Below are positions 20,111-35,975 of a stretch of DNA of 42,312 nucleotides, piece by piece; within the stretch, counting starts at the first letter, position 1; each line of letters begins with the position of its first letter. Made by a program: the position numbers and the translations under genes. Origin of the DNA: an uncultured Opitutaceae bacterium (GTDB lineage Bacteria; Verrucomicrobiota; Verrucomicrobiia; Opitutales; Opitutaceae). The notes beneath the pieces were generated by a model. It did no database searches and had not been told where the DNA came from. It worked only from the letters and a program-made list of their open reading frames with translations. The stretch lies in NCBI GenBank assembly GCA_937902925.1, contig CALFNN010000001.1, positions 1 through 42,312 of the forward strand, in the 5' to 3' direction.

Positions 20111-21715
20111 TCAGCGTGTCCGTGCCCGCCGTCGCGCGCCGATGGCGAGCGCGCCGAGACCCACGACCAGCAACGTCCAAGTCGAGGGCTCAGGAATGGC
20201 GCTGAAGCCGGAAAGGGTGAGGCCCGAGGGGCCGTAGGTAACGAGAAACGAGCTGACGCCATCGGAGGTGAACAAACGGGTTCCGCTTGCGACGTTGGTG
20301 AAGGCGCCACTGATCGACGACGCGGTGAGTAGCGTGAAATTGTCTGTGGGCAGGATCGTGGTTCGGGCCCCGTTAACGACATTGAGCGTCAGTGTGCCGC
20401 CGAATGTGGCGGTCCCGCTAACACTGAGGAAATCGTAAGTCACACCCTGCGTGGTCCCGCCCAGATCGAAGATCAGTTGCGAGGTGGCCAGCAGGCCGAG
20501 ATTTCCCTGGATCGTGAGCTGTCCAAGGATACTCCCGGGAGAAAGCGCGGCGGAGTTGGTGACATTGCCGGCGATCGTGCCGGAACCAGAGAGAGAACCT
20601 GCGGCGAGATTCAGGCCATTGTCGAACTGCGAAATCGCGCCGGCGGCGAGCAGGATGTTTCCGGCATTCTGCGTGAAAGTGGAGTCGAAGTGGAGGTTGC
20701 CGGCGTTGACGAGGATGGTGCCCTGATTCGTGAACGGGATCTCGATCTTCGTCTCGGTGGCGCCCGTCTTAATGTAAGTGCCCTGATTGGTGAACGTGAA
20801 GCTGCCCGTGATCCCGGAGTTGGTGATGGCGACCGCGCCGCCGGACGAGGCATCGGTGAAGGTTGCCCCGTTCGCATTGACGAACGAGCCGCTGTTGCCT
20901 GAACGAAGACTGCCACCGTCGTTCCAAATGAACTGGCCGTTGTTGACGATCGCGGTCCCGCCAAAATCATGCGAGGCATTGCCGGTGGCGGTGAAAAACG
21001 CGTCCGGGGTCACGATCAGCTGGTTCAGACTCGAGAAAACGCCGGCGCCCCAGTTCGAACCGGAGCCGGCCACGGTGAGGGAACTGGTGCCGGTGATGGT
21101 CCCACCGGTAAAGAGCAGGTCGTTGACCGTGACGGCAGAAGTGAGGGTGACGGTTCCACCGGCGATCGTCGCGGCATAGGTGGAATCGGCGGGAGTGCCA
21201 TTGTTCGGGACCACCCCGTTGGACCAGTTGGTGTTAACCTGCCAGTTGGCCGTGGCTCCGTTCCAAGTAGCCAAACCGGTCGGCACCGCGAGGGTGACTG
21301 TTGGACCGGGCGCGGTCGTCGCTGGAGATCCGGATTGATCACGGGTGACGCTTTCAGAGCCTAGCGGCTGGAGACCGGTAATGCCGCCAGGGTAGTGGAC
21401 GCTGAAACCGAACGTGGCTGGACTCGCGGGCACCGGGGTAAGCGCGTATGCCCAACCGATCGTCCCGCTGGCTCCGTTGGACGGAGTGACGTCCGGACCG
21501 CCGCTACTGGTAGAAACGTAGGTCCAATTGGCGGGGAGCGTCGTGCTGAAAGCGAGCACGGACGTCGGCGTCGAGTAAATGACCGACGCGTTGAATATCA
21601 GCGTGCCGCCGTTCACCAAATCCAACTGCGTGCTCGTCGGTGTGAGGACGACCGTTTGCGCGGCGAGCCGGGTCACTAGCACGAAGGCAACGGCGAGGAT
21701 CGATTGGCGCAACAT
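20111..21715 (-). CDS. PEP-CTERM surface protein with shared N-terminal PAxWTY module
   Basis: Exported 534-residue protein. A signal peptide (MLRQSILAVAFVLVTRLAAQ) justifies the ATG at 21715; the frame is open to 21775. Residues 21-125 form a beta-rich module with GGTLIFNASVIY, LPANWTYVS, ASGTIGWAY and ATFGFSVHYP. The same motif order is found at the N-terminus of the protein encoded at 34038-35975. The middle (about 150-470) is a Gly/Thr/Asn-rich stretch with ATWNGATANWQVNTNWSNGV and repeated short beta units, resembling degenerate PEP-CTERM/passenger repeats. The C-terminus is IPEPSTW, a hydrophobic helix and ARRRARTR, a PEP-CTERM signal for exosortase. No function is known. It shares the upstream region with the divergent giant-protein operon. 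Confidence 0.85.
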   Translation of the reverse strand: MLRQSILAVAFVLVTRLAAQTVVLTPTSTQLDLVNGGTLIFNASVIYSTPTSVLAFSTTLPANWTYVSTSSGGPDVTPSNGASGTIGWAYALTPVPASPATFGFSVHYPGGITGLQPLGSESVTRDQSGSPATTAPGPTVTLAVPTGLATWNGATANWQVNTNWSNGVVPNNGTPADSTYAATIAGGTVTLTSAVTVNDLLFTGGTITGTSSLTVAGSGSNWGAGVFSSLNQLIVTPDAFFTATGNASHDFGGTAIVNNGQFIWNDGGSLRSGNSGSFVNANGATFTDASSGGAVAITNSGITGSFTFTNQGTYIKTGATETKIEIPFTNQGTILVNAGNLHFDSTFTQNAGNILLAAGAISQFDNGLNLAAGSLSGSGTIAGNVTNSAALSPGSILGQLTIQGNLGLLATSQLIFDLGGTTQGVTYDFLSVSGTATFGGTLTLNVVNGARTTILPTDNFTLLTASSISGAFTNVASGTRLFTSDGVSSFLVTYGPSGLTLSGFSAIPEPSTWTLLVVGLGALAIGARRRARTR

Positions 21716-31700: not shown

Positions 31701-34018
31701 TGCCCAACGGCGATATTTATGCTGGTGGCCGATTCAGGGCCTACCGGAGCGGGAACGTCACCGACTCCGGGCTGATCCGTCTCCATCGTGACGGCACGCG
31801 TGACGATGGCGTCGCAGTCGGTGGAGGTTTCGACGGGGAAGTCCTCAGCCTGGCCCTGCAGTCCGACGGCAAGCTCGTGGTGGGAGGAAGCCTCAGTGAA
31901 TTCTACGACGTGGAGAACGACGATTTTGTCTTCACGGGCGATGTCGCGCGCCTCAATCCCGATCTCACGCTCGACGGTGGTTTTGCCGCCACGGACTTCT
32001 ACGACGGGAACGTGGCCTCGGTGGTCCTGCAGCCCGACGGCAAGATCGTCGCGGCGGGCAGTTTCGAAGGCTATGGCTCTCCGAGTCTGGCGATCGATGT
32101 GGCGAGCGTGGCCCGGTTGAATATCAACGGCACGATCGATCCGACGTTCCGGGTGCCAGGCCTCGCTTCGCCCGTGACCACGATGCAGTTCGGGGATGCG
32201 GGCACGCTGCTGATTGGCGGCGGGAGGTTCGACTTCCCCAATCGCGCCACCGCTGGTCTCGCGCTGCTGGAAGCGCCGCCCGATCTGTCGATCACCAACA
32301 CGGCCGCGGACGTCACGCTTGCCGTGGGCGGCTCGGCCACGCTCAGTTTCACGGGCACCGTCAGCCCAGTGCCGACATTCCAGTGGCTGCGAAATGGGAT
32401 TGCGGTGGCGGGTGCGACAAACCCGTCACTGGCGATCACCAACGTCACCTCGGCGAATTCAGGCGTCTACTCGGTGGCGATCACGAACGCCGGCGGGACG
32501 TTCCTCAGCCCAGGCACGCAGGTGGATGTGCTGGCGCGCAGCCTGCTCAATCTCAGCTCGAACACGACCGTGCCCGCCGGTGGATCAATCGGAGCCAGTT
32601 TCACGATCGAGGGCGGGACCCCGAAGCAGATTCTCATCCGTGGTCTCGGGCCGGTGCTGGGGGGCGCTCCGTTCAATTTCAGCGGCGTGCTCACCGACCC
32701 CCGGCTCACCTTGTTCGATCCCGCCGGCGTGCAAATTGCCACCAATGACGATTGGGGCTCCAGCCCGTCGGCGGTCGCGACGGCCTTTGCGGCCGTGGGC
32801 GCGCTGCCACTGCCGGATGCGAGCAAGGATGCCGCCTTGCTCGTGACGCTCAGCCCCGGCACCTACACGGCTCGACTGGATGCCGTCGACGGTTCGGGAG
32901 GCAGGGCCCTGCTGGAGGTCTATGATGTCGATACGGGAGACCTCCCGCGGATCGTGATGCTGACCATGCGCGGCCCTGTGACGGGCGAGACGCCGCTCGT
33001 GGTCGGCTTCAATCTCACGGGTGCGCCGGGCGTCGCCCGCAGCTATCTGCTCAGGGCGATGGGTCCGTCGCTCGGGTTCTCTGCCGGCGTCTTGTCCGAT
33101 CCGGTGATGGCGGTCTATGACAGCAAAAATGTCGACCTCGGTTTCAACGACGATTGGGGTAGTCCGACGGCCGAAGACTGGCGCCATGAGGAAGTCTCAG
33201 TTGCACAACCGCCGGTGAGTGGATCGGACATTAGTGCAGTGGTTGCCAATGTGGGTGCGCAGCCGTCCAACCATTCCTACGACTCGGCCCTGTTCCTCAA
33301 GCTTGCTCCGGGCACTTACACGGCCCAGATCGAGCCCTACAGCCCCGGCTACGAGTCCGGCGAAGTGGTCTTCGAACTATTCGCGGCCGACAACCAGCGT
33401 CCGGCGACAATCTCCCCGGCGATCACCTATCTGGCGCGCAACCAGACCGTGTCGCTCGGCGACACGGCTTACTTGGGCGTAAACACCGTGGCGAAGCCGG
33501 CGGCGACCTTCCAGTGGCGCAAATATGTCAACGGCGCTCCGGTCGCGATCAACGGGGCGACCGGTCCTGTCCTGGCTCTCGGCTCGATCCAGGCGTCCGA
33601 TATCACCAGCTACGACGTCGTGATCTCGAACAGTGTCGCCACGATCACGAGTCCGCAACGCGCGTTGATTCTCCTGTCCAGCTACCACTCCGCCGACATC
33701 GACAAGGACAGCCGGATCGATCTGGTTGAACTCACCCGTGTCATCCAGCTCTACAAATATGCGACGGGCGCCGTGCGCACGGGCGAATACCACACGCAGA
33801 CGGTTCCCGCCACGGAGGACGGCTTTGCCCCGGGTCCCGGCGCCATCACGACCTATCATTCGGCCGACAGTAATCACGATGGCCGGATCGATTCCGCCGA
33901 GCTTTCACGGGTGATCCAACTCTATGACTATTCGAATGGATCGGCCCGCACGGGCCAGTATCATTCGCAGAGCGGCACGGAGGATGGGTTTGCCCCGGGG
34001 CCCAACCAGACGGACTAA
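22781..34018 (+). CDS. Giant exported multi-propeller/Ig surface protein (3745 aa)
   Basis: Secreted protein with a signal peptide (MKRIFAVFLVLFVPAFAHVG). Domains by approximate residue: 27-370 helical, TPR-like start; 370-967 sialidase/Ycf48-like propeller units with S-x-D-G-x-x-W (SNDGTTW, SSDGQHW); 970-1157 two Ig-like domains; 1157-1487 first NHL block; 1487-1662 two Ig-like; 1663-2337 second NHL block with about 12 units (VYVADSSNRTIRKI type); 2340-2427 Ig-like; 2427-3163 delta-60 block with about 13 units (RLNADGSLD); 3165-3253 Ig-like; 3254-3538 a duplicated domain with ILIRGLGPVLGG and LLRAMGPSLGF; 3538-3634 Ig-like; 3635-3745 two EF-hand-like units. No enzyme motif is seen. It probably acts as a surface adhesin or scaffold. 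The ATG at 22781 overlaps the upstream stop (ATGA). The frame is uninterrupted over 11.2 kb. It lacks PEP-CTERM. Confidence 0.92.
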   Translation: MKRIFAVFLVLFVPAFAHVGGSAAAAKIAAGRAALATHDLVAAQADFGDAISLAGTEEDASAYQTASALLGFTRVFALAAAANTSSAAGTATSQFLDGLNIGPSAGRDVYNWAAQLPHDGNGNLILPAGYNLTTVESLWLNVLLPATAAARGNLSGVTSQGFLLTLYPSETTSPATLNIDYGDVLMARASLSAVEFVFHFLSGQDLHANLDAMNQLAQGNMLKLQQVLAANPDFLKVGSTSERAAALASLSNVISLYRQASTFIRTVRPAGVSRMFMLDAKDLPAEAEFRAQLDKIELSFTEPVSSDKGNAAFFTGPLFGSSWVMRDRIPALNAVTGGFDLESIVDASLGGIAAGLTREQVAGLFDRPELGWTWVTPLPQGGALYRYLALPGGKHVASGDAGMVLTSNDGTTWVTHSIAHEGQIWGLATNGTAVVACTDQGSIYLSNDSGVTWQKTLATGSAFWAVTYGGGTFVAVGNNGNTATSSDGQHWTVNSSPTGGNSFYDVLYTGSVYLAVGQLQGTAVIASSNDGVTWNTNFTASSSGYSFLGVAQGGGKFVAVGDANHEAVSTNGTAWTAGTLLASGTTTFSGVGYFNGKFVAAGNAGTIANSSDGGSGAWTSGNSGDSADTLNTVGVGSTAVYVATQAGLILQSTDGSTFTRALDPQTVGPLGTGALLSIRALGSELYAVGGSSTLGTIVHSSDGLTFTPVAASGATSTLWGILQHGATYYAVGNGGALVTTTTPSGTWTPAAASPLGGGANLRSISYLNNSLYVITGNNATLLTSGDGATWTSRTTLVSHTGSDFLYGAAYGNGVYVAVGGNNNNLNYVFTSTDGSNWTQRSLGIGNTFRAVVFYQGYFTAVGNLGAVYRSANGVNWSFVDAGTEADFGGLSVRDGRYYAAAGASGSGFGSSFPVGPQAVMLVSSDGVHWAQTDRGAANNAYSVELFNGRLYTSGDNFSIQRSEVIAASSVHAPVPVTPAPASSVNQGTNHVLAVTSDTSGGQTFVWTKNESVIPGVTGPALALKNVQFGDGGTYQVTVTNAAGTSSAASFNFSVSESSASPAITQQPESQTVSTGFNATFSVAASGTGSFTYQWQKDGVSVSDGTHASAATVAGATTDTLMLTGVQGADAGAYTVVVTGTGTPATSDQADLTVDSNPAYTFSTLAGLAFTSGNTTNVSGSSARFNAPCGVAVDSANNVYVADTNNGAIRKITPAGAVTTLASGTFGSPVGIVAVGSTLYFTTGGHAVRSIGTDGTGLTLLAGTVGSPGSADGAGLTVARFNNPRGIASDGTYLYVADTSNHTIRKIEIATGIVSTLAGSAGSSGFTNANGSAARFNGPQGVALSPGGANLFVADSNNNVVRKIVVSSGAVTTFAGQGGTFGFGEVDGPGTLAAFAFPVGIAVDAAGYVYVGDNGGAALRRIAPDGSYVHTIGGQAFWQGGNDGIGTDARFNTPGSIVLDAAANLYIADTNSHTIRKGVPSAAISWPVIGVLPVDQTVAVGGAAALKVSATGAGTLSYQWKKNGVAIGGATNAALTFTSVQAADAGNYTVTVTSTAGGLAVSPIATLTVNPGPAITGLSGLPTIAVGATLNLGVSALGAPALGYQWLKDGLPLTDGLAISGSTTSQLTVTNAQTSDSGRYSVEVFNSYAGEISSPVTVVVYASEPYSFSTFAGRSAIGTADGTGSAARFNLPSGVARDSAGNLYVADTNGQTIRKIASGGVVTTFAGMAAAQGSADGSLAVARFKSPQSVAIDGNGDLYVADGGNGTIRKITMSTGTVSTLAGVAGSFGSADGALVSGVSTARFAFPQAITIDGTGNVYVADSSNRTIRKISPTGDVTTLAGSAGLSGSVDATGGAARFSSPVGVAVDGAGNVYVADNGNRTIRKVTAGGVVTTMAGQVGVSGSTNGSAGLPLTAQFTSPVGIALKPDGVGGSVLYVTDNQTIRTIATSDASAISAGGALTVGTLAGANGALGNLDAATGPATTARFNSPVGLVADSSGNLFVADSKNDTIRSVTAAGLVTTVAGSPIAFGANDSPDALFNFPKSVAPDLFGNVYVADSSNNTIRKIAANGTVTTVAGTPGISGSTDTAQGSPLFNNPTGVATDAAGNVYVTDRGNRTIRKITFAAGPPPTVTVTTLAGLAGSGNISIDGTAGSGGTARFSAPNGIAVNALGTIIYVADQGAHTIREIASGGVVTLAGFAFSAGNADGRGSGARFNAPADVAVDSHGNVYVADNSNGTLRKITPGGDVTTVFSFGGFPNGVGVDAGDNVYVAGTNSVVFKITPAGTVTAIGGLYLNPGNVDGIGSAARFTGGFGVKVDGTGKVFVADGNANTIRKGFAFALPAITDPPATFASGAVGDSVTLSVAATGTAPLTYQWRKFGQPIAGATTATLQLNNLSAFDAGLYDVVVSNGSTPASAVTRVTVNPAQNLPAALTASAGFAPLVERGNGDVVWTLRANDGKIYVSGDFSSMAGAPRDGFGRLNADGTLDAAFVPARPDALVWAMGAQSTNKVVIGGDFESVGGIGRRFLARLNADGSLDASFTPTFAFPGSVYALVIQPDDKIVAAGVRDGSNVNIVRLNGDGTVDSSFNVGTGFDNDVYDMRRQADGKLVAIGPFTSYNGTSVGHIARLNANGSLDITFNNGGSGFDGSPNVIQLQPGDGKIVIGGYFTSYDGTARNHLVRLDGTTGALDAGFVPAASASSNVGGVWQFDIQTDGAIVIAGESQLGGEVVGGGIHRLTSTGTVDAGFNPGTGFGGGADDVVVLSNGQILANPDSKSGSYNSVAIGALVRINSDGTLDATYDSGVRIPGTVNTIVPAPNGAWIVGGDFDHVNGVARNDLARLNADGSLDLTFMNTGTGFNGAVNAVVMQADGKVIAGGAFTCFNGPSAHRIVRLDTAGARDSSFGIGSGFNDDVRSLALQADGDVLVGGRFSSYGDNFQQLLARLGPDGTLDGAFVANGDAAGWNDGDKIDTLMVLPNGDIYAGGRFRAYRSGNVTDSGLIRLHRDGTRDDGVAVGGGFDGEVLSLALQSDGKLVVGGSLSEFYDVENDDFVFTGDVARLNPDLTLDGGFAATDFYDGNVASVVLQPDGKIVAAGSFEGYGSPSLAIDVASVARLNINGTIDPTFRVPGLASPVTTMQFGDAGTLLIGGGRFDFPNRATAGLALLEAPPDLSITNTAADVTLAVGGSATLSFTGTVSPVPTFQWLRNGIAVAGATNPSLAITNVTSANSGVYSVAITNAGGTFLSPGTQVDVLARSLLNLSSNTTVPAGGSIGASFTIEGGTPKQILIRGLGPVLGGAPFNFSGVLTDPRLTLFDPAGVQIATNDDWGSSPSAVATAFAAVGALPLPDASKDAALLVTLSPGTYTARLDAVDGSGGRALLEVYDVDTGDLPRIVMLTMRGPVTGETPLVVGFNLTGAPGVARSYLLRAMGPSLGFSAGVLSDPVMAVYDSKNVDLGFNDDWGSPTAEDWRHEEVSVAQPPVSGSDISAVVANVGAQPSNHSYDSALFLKLAPGTYTAQIEPYSPGYESGEVVFELFAADNQRPATISPAITYLARNQTVSLGDTAYLGVNTVAKPAATFQWRKYVNGAPVAINGATGPVLALGSIQASDITSYDVVISNSVATITSPQRALILLSSYHSADIDKDSRIDLVELTRVIQLYKYATGAVRTGEYHTQTVPATEDGFAPGPGAITTYHSADSNHDGRIDSAELSRVIQLYDYSNGSARTGQYHSQSGTEDGFAPGPNQTD
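26250..29790 (+). repeat. NHL-repeat blocks inside the giant protein
   Basis: Coding repeats of about 50-60 residues with the core G-V-A-V-D-x-x-G-N-V-Y-V-A-D-x-x-N-x-x-I-R-K-I. About six units lie at 26250-27240 and about twelve at 27766-29790, separated by two Ig-like domains. Each block should fold into one or two beta-propellers. Conservation at DNA level is partial (for example many versions of GTCTACGTGGCGGAC), giving scope for recombination between units. Confidence 0.85.
30060..32270 (+). repeat. Delta-60 repeat block inside the giant protein
   Basis: About thirteen units of 50-60 residues with the pattern R-L-N-x-D-G-[ST]-L-D-x-x-F followed by Q-x-D-G-K-[IL]-V-x-G-G-x-F. This matches the delta-60 repeat family, which is common in myxobacterial and verrucomicrobial secreted proteins. 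The block should form one or two propeller-like domains. Confidence 0.85.
33683..34015 (+). repeat. C-terminal tandem EF-hand-like module of the giant protein
   Basis: Two copies of a 54-57-residue unit: YHSAD, a 12-residue calcium loop, E-L-x-R-V-I-Q-L-Y, a Gly/Arg segment (RTGxYHxQ) and EDGFAPGP. The loops are DIDKDSRIDLVE and DSNHDGRIDSAE; positions 1, 3, 5, 9 and 12 carry Asp/Asn/Glu and position 8 is Ile, the EF-hand/dockerin pattern. The module occupies the extreme C-terminus, where a sorting or anchoring signal would be expected. Confidence 0.85.
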
Positions 34019-34037: not shown

Positions 34038-35975
34038 GTGAGGTTCTGGTTCACCGCCTTCGCGGCGCTCATGGGAAGCGCCGCCGTCGTCGCGCAGACC
34101 GCCACCCTGGCGCCGGGTGCGACCACGCTTGGTTCCAGCGGCGGAGTCGTCACGCTTTCCTTCAACGTCACCTACCCGGCGCCGCCGGCGACGTTCGCGC
34201 TCGATGTCGTGGTGCCGGCCGGCTGGACCTATCAATCGGGGACGGGCGAACCCTCGCTCAAACCCGACGTGGGGGCGCAGGGGACGTTGAGCTGGCTCAA
34301 CATCAATCCGCAGGCCGGCCCGGTGCAGTTTTCGTTTGTCGTGGGCTATCCGTCGAGCGTCGCGGCGGCGACCGTCACTTCAGCCGTCGTGCTGCACCAA
34401 AATTCGACCCAGCCGGTCGACCCGAAGAATCCCACCGGACCGACGCACGTGGTCGACGTGACCACTCATCTTACGCCGACGGCCATTGCCTTCACGGTGG
34501 CCTCGACTGGCGGCGGCGGCGTTGGCTCCGGTGGCGGCGGCGGTAGTTCGGGCGGCGGCTCTTCGGGCGGTGGGGGAGGCGGCGGCGCGTCGAGTGTCGT
34601 TCCCGTCATCGCAACGCAGCCCGCCAGCCAGGCGGTCGCGATCGGATCGACCGTGACGCTCGCCGTGTCGGCGACCAGCACCGCGCCGCTGAGCTATCTT
34701 TGGCGCAAGAACGGACAACCGGTGGATGGGGCCACGACTTCGACGTTGACGCTTTCGAATGTGCAGCCGTCGGACGCCGGCGGTTATTTTGTCGTCGTGA
34801 GCAATTCCCAGGCATCGGCGACAAGCGTCACCGCCGTCCTCACGGTCGGGTTGCCGCCGACGATTCTTACCCAGCCGGCGAGTCAGACCGCGGCCGCCGG
34901 CACGCCGGTCCTCCTGAGCGCGACCGCCTCCGCGCCCGCCGGCGGGGCCGCGCCCACTTACCAATGGCGGCGCGATGGCAGCGATGTTTCCGGCGCCACT
35001 GCCGGGATGCTTGCCCTCGACAACGTGCAGCCGCTCGATGCGGGCATCTACACGGCCGCCGTGACATCCGTCGTGACCACGACCAGTGCGCCGGCCGTGG
35101 TCGGTGTCTCCACCCTGAGCAAGGTGATCGGCGCCGGCGACGAGATCGGTGTGAACATCGTCCATCCGAACGGCAATGTGTTCGACCAAGTGTTGCTCAC
35201 CGGGCCGGCGGAGGCGATCACCGCGGACTCCGTGCTCAACCAGATCACGCGGACATCCTTCATCGATCCCAACGACGACATCGTGCAGGTGGAATTGAGC
35301 GGCCCCGGGACGCTGTCGCTGGTGCTCGATGCCTCCTCCGGGCCGGCTGCGCCCGCGAACTACAACCAGCCGGCAGTCGCCTACATGAAAGGGCGGGCGC
35401 GAATCGTTGTCACCGGCGCAAACGCGAACACGAACCTCACGGTTTTCACCGTGGGGCGCGCCACCGCGTTCGATCCGACGGGCGCCTTCAACATTCTCCT
35501 CCCGATCAGTTCCACGAACAATCCGGCGAACAACGGCAGTTCGCTTTTTGCCGGACACACCGCGACCGTCTATAACGGGATCGCGGACATCGCCTACATC
35601 GCGATTCTGAGCACGGATGGGAAATTCGGCGGCCTGCGGTCCGCCAACGCGCGTTACTCTGCCGGCGCCGGCCTGACCGGCATCTACGCACCGGGCGTGC
35701 AGTTCCTCGGCCCGCTTTATCTTGGCGACATCAGCGCGACCGGGGCGGCGAGTCCGGTGATTGTCGTCGGATCCGCTGGAGACGCGCGCATCACCGGTGG
35801 CAGCCTCCTGCAGGCGAACGGCCAACCCGTGCAGGTGACCGGCGTCACGCAGCTCAAGTTTACCTCGGGACAGGATTCTGGCGGGAATGTCCTCCCCGCC
35901 CAGGCCAACCGCGCGGTGCTGCAGCAGAACGGTGTCGATGTGACGACGACGCTGGTGGTGAATCCCGGCCCGTAG
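34038..35975 (+). CDS. Exported Ig-domain protein with shared N-terminal PAxWTY module
   Basis: A 645-residue exported protein starting 19 bases after the giant gene, so most likely in the same transcript. I chose GTG at 34038, which gives a compact signal peptide (RFWFTAFAALMGSAAVVAQ); ATG at 33984 and 33924 would overlap the giant gene. Residues 21-125 form the module shared with the PEP-CTERM protein at 20111-21715 (VTLSFNVTYP, VPAGWTYQS, GAQGTLSWL, VQFSFVVGYP). Residues 158-187 are a Gly/Ser linker. Two Ig-like domains follow (about 188-271 and 273-358) with the usual LSYLWRKNGQPV and SDAGGYFVVVSN strands. The C-terminal 285 residues form an unnamed beta-rich domain containing NGNVFDQVLLTGPAEAITAD and VGRATAFDPTGAFN. 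No anchoring signal is evident. Confidence 0.85.
   Translation: MRFWFTAFAALMGSAAVVAQTATLAPGATTLGSSGGVVTLSFNVTYPAPPATFALDVVVPAGWTYQSGTGEPSLKPDVGAQGTLSWLNINPQAGPVQFSFVVGYPSSVAAATVTSAVVLHQNSTQPVDPKNPTGPTHVVDVTTHLTPTAIAFTVASTGGGGVGSGGGGGSSGGGSSGGGGGGGASSVVPVIATQPASQAVAIGSTVTLAVSATSTAPLSYLWRKNGQPVDGATTSTLTLSNVQPSDAGGYFVVVSNSQASATSVTAVLTVGLPPTILTQPASQTAAAGTPVLLSATASAPAGGAAPTYQWRRDGSDVSGATAGMLALDNVQPLDAGIYTAAVTSVVTTTSAPAVVGVSTLSKVIGAGDEIGVNIVHPNGNVFDQVLLTGPAEAITADSVLNQITRTSFIDPNDDIVQVELSGPGTLSLVLDASSGPAAPANYNQPAVAYMKGRARIVVTGANANTNLTVFTVGRATAFDPTGAFNILLPISSTNNPANNGSSLFAGHTATVYNGIADIAYIAILSTDGKFGGLRSANARYSAGAGLTGIYAPGVQFLGPLYLGDISATGAASPVIVVGSAGDARITGGSLLQANGQPVQVTGVTQLKFTSGQDSGGNVLPAQANRAVLQQNGVDVTTTLVVNPGP

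Follow-up and report, generated by a model that had tools for sequence, protein, structure and literature searches.

A divergent Ig-like module of secreted proteins and a dockerin-like C-terminal tail of Ca2+-loop/helix repeats are genetically linked in Opitutae, as shown by their distribution over genomes and by the placement of their genes. The two might together constitute a docking system of the Opitutae resembling that of cohesins and dockerins, a proposal that we advance tentatively, with slightly less than even confidence. The window, i.e. the whole stretch of 42,312 nucleotides from an uncultured Opitutaceae bacterium that was analyzed here, encodes a giant secreted protein that lies between two copies of the module and ends in such a tail, itself being devoid of the type-A form of the module (see below for the two types). 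The start of the giant was assigned from the signal-peptide-like sequence MKRIFAVFLVLFVPAFA.

The shared module and the proteins that bear it

Both module copies of the window are found directly behind a signal peptide, in P0001 and P0002 (Table 1), and both open reading frames translate as the initial annotation had described. Its central claim, that the two proteins share the same N-terminal module, is borne out: the regions are homologous and display the signature residues quoted there, with 34% identity over about 126 residues and scores of 61.2 bits in BLASTP and 38.6 bits in phmmer (one-target searches, whose E-values are not database E-values). Their local alignment scores 153, when 2000 shuffles averaged 42.6 and never exceeded 89 (Z 13.5). 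The end position of 34410 proposed for the first copy is slightly short, because the module proper reaches approximately 34466. Pfam and NCBIfam scans likewise agree with the contrast drawn between the two proteins, in that P0002 terminates in a PEP-CTERM motif (PF07589, E 6.6e-8), whereas P0001 contains two Ig domains and gave no sorting-signal match in these scans.

Table 1. Positions of the module, the tail and their parent proteins in the window
Feature	Coordinates	Strand	Description
P0001, secreted	34038..35975	+	N-terminal type-B module, Gly/Ser linker, two Ig domains, unnamed C-terminal domain of ~290 residues
Module copy 1 (P0001, N-terminal; gene after the tail-bearing giant)	~34098..34466	+	type-B clade
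C-terminal domain of P0001	35061..35972	+	unnamed, ~290 residues
P0002, secreted	20111..21715	-	N-terminal type-B module and C-terminal PEP-CTERM
Module copy 2 (P0002, N-terminal)	~21281..21652	-	type-B clade
Giant secreted protein, 3745 aa	22781..34018	+	DUF5122 and NHL repeats, Ig domains
Dockerin-like C-terminal tail of the giant	33677..34000	+	two Ca2+-loop/helix repeats: HSADIDKDSRIDLVELTRVIQLY, HSADSNHDGRIDSAELSRVIQLY

A count of copies in the same genome (G000, 5,998,283 bases in 105 contigs), as suggested along with the initial annotation, recovered six: the two in the window and four on contig C47. The first of the latter immediately precedes the dockerin-like tail that ends a giant protein (a frame of 6417 aa). 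The second stands alone as a secreted protein, P0003 (160 residues), encoded after this tail-bearing giant, the third forms the N-terminus of a second giant of 3527 aa encoded after P0003, and the fourth is located about 15 kb further on (L008:3370-4989). A seventh candidate, on contig C90, was a weak match (E 0.46) that disappeared with a better profile.

Two further conserved regions are present in these proteins. The C-terminal domain of P0001 is shared with the proteins at L008:3-803 and L008:3370-4989 on contig C47; it is typified by the patterns FID.NDDIVQ.E..G.GTL and NLTVF.VG.ATA.DPTGA and matched no Pfam model over that model's cut-off. A stretch of about 100 residues, situated inside the giant near its C-terminus and before its last Ig domain, is also what ends many module proteins (L039, L046, L050, L051, L053, L062, L069 and L081). 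It shows the pattern GFVISG..PKRVLVRG.GP.L..FGV.G.L.DPQL.L...NDDW...ALIEVYE and received no Pfam name in the scan of the giant.

Predicted fold and phylogeny of the module

AlphaFold2 (66 sequences, pLDDT 87.8, pTM 0.78) predicts the window module as an eight-stranded sandwich, and from these models the module is a divergent Ig-like beta-sandwich with its closest affinity to DUF11/CLIPPER. Both this model and that of a homologous module together with its tail recovered the CLIPPER (DUF11) domain 9ifr as the top Foldseek match (E 5.1e-5 and 3.6e-6). Profile-profile comparison gives the same picture, with an hhalign probability of 92.8% against DUF11 (E 3.8e-7 over 80 columns) versus 0.5% against the Ig domains of the window, which served as a control. 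The earlier statement that the module is unnamed stands at curated thresholds: no Pfam or NCBIfam model covers it in P0001 or P0002 at E up to 10, and neither copy reaches the gathering cut-off of PF01345. At the level of profiles, however, the module is a remote relative of DUF11/CLIPPER. When all 66 modules were run against Pfam at E up to 1, NPCBM_assoc/NEW3 was hit by 23 of them (best 3.3e-4) and DUF11 by five (best 1.3e-4).

Structural alignment of the window module with VIA-align yielded Z-scores of 13.4 for integrin calf domains, 12.6 for CLIPPER (9ifr, rmsd 2.3, 112 residues aligned) and 11.7 for a cohesin (2jh2_C, rmsd 3.2, 116 aligned). For the model of module plus tail the corresponding values, from alignments spanning residues 1-123, were 13.2 for the pilin SpaD, 12.7 for CLIPPER and 11.7 for cohesin. 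Because the scores of integrin, pilin and CLIPPER domains equal or exceed those of cohesins, a cohesin-like role is allowed by the fold without being singled out by it. Comparison with an alignment of two cohesin sequences returned an hhalign probability of 0.1%, and Cohesin was absent among 25 of the 28 Pfam families shown for the 66 modules.

Matches of the module profile to antibody chains among sequences of solved structures were weak (best E 0.0068) and were taken as chance, and a Foldseek search against viral models gave nothing informative. A toxin or phage origin of the module was set aside, with nothing pointing there.

A phylogenetic tree was computed from 66 modules, comprising 41 of 43 non-tail and 25 of 53 tail-attached copies out of 96 matches. 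It splits into two deep clades (SH support 0.961; UFBoot 100 with IQ-TREE). Every one of the 25 tail-attached copies falls into type A, together with three that are C-terminal (two in L087, one in L093). The other 38, which are N-terminal, free-standing or internal, make up type B and include both copies from the window.

The affinity to DUF11 raises the alternative that the module is an ordinary stalk component, i.e. a CLIPPER/DUF11-like Ig spacer. Copies in cis with the tail would then stiffen the junction to the Ca2+ repeats, N-terminal copies would merely open an extended surface fiber as its first bead and next-gene copies would reflect duplication within adhesin operons. The profile match and the identity of the top structural hit, a domain used in adhesin stalks (PMC12617251), speak for such a spacer, which we nonetheless consider rather unlikely. 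The residues of the isopeptide bond are not conserved in the module, as no column of its alignment has K, N or D above 37%, even if some members of the CLIPPER family are also without this bond (PMC12617251). Moreover, domains of this kind usually occur in tandem, whereas the module is almost always single, either N-terminal or just before a tail, and the sorting of two deep clades by position suggests two distinct jobs.

The dockerin-like tail and its linkage with the module

The two repeats of the giant's tail take the form H-S-A-D-x-[DN]-x-D-x-x-I-x-x-x-E-L-x-R-V-I-x-L-Y. The tail passes both the EF-hand_1 model (25.5 bits, cut-off 25.4) and Dockerin_1 (PF00404; 23.1 bits, cut-off 22.9) narrowly, and a longer piece of it falls just under the latter cut-off at 22.1 bits. 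More generally, no more than 10 out of 20 tails match Dockerin_1 when E-values up to 1 are allowed, and the tail profile recovered, among sequences of solved structures, weak hits to EF-hand proteins and to one dockerin-bearing chain (4fl4_A, E 0.047). The canonical 12-residue EF loop is fitted by 216 of 272 tail units, and in the AlphaFold2 model of a homologous module with its tail (33 sequences, pLDDT 93.9, pTM 0.70) each loop is predicted to be followed by one helix (residues 137-147 and 199-209), the arrangement known from dockerin F-hands.

The proteins that carry the tail are diverse and include giants, di-haem peroxidases, a DUF1800 protein with an internal tail and small proteins. Enzymes of the di-haem cytochrome c peroxidase/MauG type (L198:1140-2690, plus strand; L200:2216-3757, minus strand) have the tail without the module. 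In 96 of 103 closed reading frames the protein ends within 15 residues of the tail, with a conserved EDGFAPGP end. This terminal position on unrelated cargo would also be expected if the type-A module and tail were a bipartite C-terminal signal for export or anchoring by a putative Opitutae machine, to which type B belongs or for which it competes. We regard this as improbable, given that some tails are internal, with about 300 or more residues behind them (L066, L075, L085 and L196), and that type-B modules are N-terminal and themselves placed on cargo. In L066, L075 and L085 the domain that follows the module and tail resembles, by eye, the formylglycine-generating (FGE/sulfatase-modifying) domain.

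The phyletic distributions of the two elements are nested. Among 120 genomes sampled evenly across the family the module was found in 15 and the tail in 13, all of them within the 15 (G051 and G064 having the module alone). In a sample of 387 genomes of the phylum, where 11 or 12 candidates were scored per genome so that the counts are lower bounds, the tail is present in at least nine and the module in at least 12 genomes, with all nine tail genomes sharing the module. Hypergeometric probabilities for this co-occurrence, which take no account of relatedness or fusion, are 1.2e-15 for the family and 4.5e-16 for the phylum. Among the best 80 of 108 matches, module and tail were found together in 77 loci of named genomes; 76 of these are titled Opitutae, Opitutia, Opitutaceae, Opitutus or Verrucomicrobia/-iia/-ota, and one is titled just 'bacterium'.

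Gene neighborhoods were assessed in the family sample for 82 tail and 102 module matches, counting modules on the same strand within 300 bp upstream or 1 kb downstream of a tail. An upstream module precedes 58 of the 82 tails. A module starts downstream of nine of the 24 tails without an upstream module (four of these nine are paralogous loci within the single genome G020, and in G042, contig C114, the tail is cut by a contig end) and of nine of the 58 tails with one. Random placement would give at most 0.10 downstream neighbors in 82 tails. Near no module are 15 of the 82 tails, several of them at contig ends, and a tail in L197 keeps the apparent end of a module and linker. Seen from the modules, 57 of 102 precede a tail and 18 follow one; the other 27 do neither, some of them again lying at contig ends.

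A count based on reading frames, using loci partly chosen by the module, found that in 96 of 109 unique tail frames the module immediately precedes the tail, in frame with it. For eight of the remaining 13 the following gene encodes an N-terminal module; these are the window giant, two in L050 and one each in L051, L062, L063, L069 and L040. In both G063 and G095 there is exactly one module and exactly one tail, encoded by neighboring genes. A chance association of two unrelated domains, both common in large, modular, repeat-rich surface proteins in which domains shuffle, thus appears very improbable: next-gene pairing far above random placement contradicts it, as does the presence of the module in nine of nine tail genomes of the phylum sample, with the counts being lower bounds.

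The linkage extends beyond the family. Four of the nine tail genomes of the phylum sample are outside it (G223, G279, G384 and G413), and in these the modules adjoin the repeats within a single chain; three of the four have modules flanking the repeats on either side. In one distant genome (L225/L216) a module-EF-module-EF-module alternation is seen within a single chain. Such alternation in distant genomes favors the stalk explanation, as opposed to the free-standing secreted proteins of about 160 residues that consist of the module and adjoin tail genes, which are less easily accommodated as stalk spacers.

The arrangement of the window recurs in another genus of the family (L040), where the same three genes are found in the same orientation: a divergent PEP-CTERM protein (PF07589, 24.4 bits) that starts with the module, a tail-bearing giant and, downstream, a protein that likewise has the module at its N-terminus. 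The L040 modules are sisters of those of P0002 (UFBoot 100) and P0001 (UFBoot 99). In L063 the type-B protein beside the tail gene has at its C-terminus a hydrophobic segment and then RRRR, an anchor recognized by eye only; no NCBIfam sorting signal was found in it.

A candidate docking system and its relation to known systems

The initial annotation had read the two module copies as pointing to a common partner or an assembly role. Genetic linkage agrees with this and supplies a candidate partner that was absent from that account, the Ca2+ tail of the giant; a physical contact between the tail and the type-B module, its need for Ca2+ and the tethering of the giant are what we infer from the linkage. 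Under the docking proposal type B would be the likely receptor, as it either directly follows the signal peptide in other secreted proteins or is secreted on its own. The type-B module of P0001 could take the tail of the giant encoded before it, joining these proteins end to end, or alternatively that of the PEP-CTERM protein P0002 could take it, tethering the giant to the surface. Type A, which immediately precedes the tail within one chain, probably steadies it by analogy with the X-module of type-II dockerins. Since the window giant is without type A and the next gene starts with type B, the arrangement agrees best with recognition of the tail.

Rather more doubtful is the fuller scenario in which the Opitutae built their own cohesin/dockerin analog out of a stalk domain of the CLIPPER/DUF11 type. 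The family would have split into a form that steadies the tail (A) and a receptor (B), with Ca2+-dependent docking chaining giants end to end and PEP-CTERM proteins providing the tether. Several observations argue against docking: the 58 of 82 tails with a module in cis are equally explained by a rigid spacer, and the module has no detected sequence relation to cohesins, its fold match to them being unspecific. The 27 of 102 modules and 15 of 82 tails that have no counterpart nearby also count against it, as do the four paralogous G020 loci and the truncated G042 tail among the nine next-gene cases.

Few known protein couplings are as tight or as useful as those between cohesins and dockerins. 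The shared module and Ca2+ tail suggest that the cell surface is built with an unrecognized system of parts that snap together. If this is correct, it would be a second, independently built pair of the cohesin-dockerin kind, one that assembles giant proteins rather than cellulases, and would point to a rule for how numerous unread repeat proteins in Verrucomicrobiota are linked together and kept at the surface. It would also offer a new orthogonal coupling for engineering, and the docking question is in itself a test for a role of a DUF11-like domain other than in stalks. The titles and abstract openings that were searched contained no description of the module and tail as a pair, which is no proof of absence.

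When placed beside known systems, the module shares with CLIPPER (PF01345, formerly DUF11) a CnaA/Ig-like beta-sandwich deployed in secreted surface proteins. It differs in being single and terminal rather than tandem, in its tie to Ca2+ repeats, in having no conserved isopeptide residues and in the window copies falling below the Pfam cut-off. Its fold is compatible with that of cohesins (PF00963; 2jh2_C, Z 11.7), though not specifically so, and like a cohesin it is genetically tied, in the manner of a partner, to a tail of the dockerin type, but no sequence relation to cohesins was detected. True cohesins can also be used in this family: P0005 (L088:252-3068, minus strand) has the module at its N-terminus and, toward its C-terminus, a genuine cohesin followed by dockerin-like repeats. 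Its C-terminal piece scores 26.3 bits for Cohesin, over the cut-off, and 19.2 bits for Dockerin_1, below the cut-off of 22.9; a Pfam scan of the full-length protein at E up to 0.01 showed no Cohesin match.

Dockerins are C-terminal Ca2+-loop repeats on diverse cargo that are bound by beta-sandwich cohesins (PMC5141474). Like type-I dockerins (PF00404), the tail has two loop-helix repeats with Ca2+ ligands in a C-terminal position on diverse cargo, but its repeats are about 60 residues apart and separated by a conserved R-T-G-x-Y ... E-D-G-F insert. Type-II dockerins, with two F-hands, are directly preceded by an Ig-like X-module that packs on the dockerin (PMC5141474). The combination of type A and tail reproduces the order of this dyad of type-II cellulosomal scaffoldins, an Ig-like domain and then the tail, the comparison being one of order and not of sequence; it differs in that the putative receptor (type B) and the putative X-module (type A) belong here to the same family. 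Finally, the 'Planctosome' proposed for freshwater Planctomycetes is similarly a non-cellulosomal assembly of the cohesin/dockerin style in a Gram-negative lineage (PMC6461901). It is formed there by recognizable cohesins and peptidases, in contrast to the DUF11-like module and giant repeat proteins described here.
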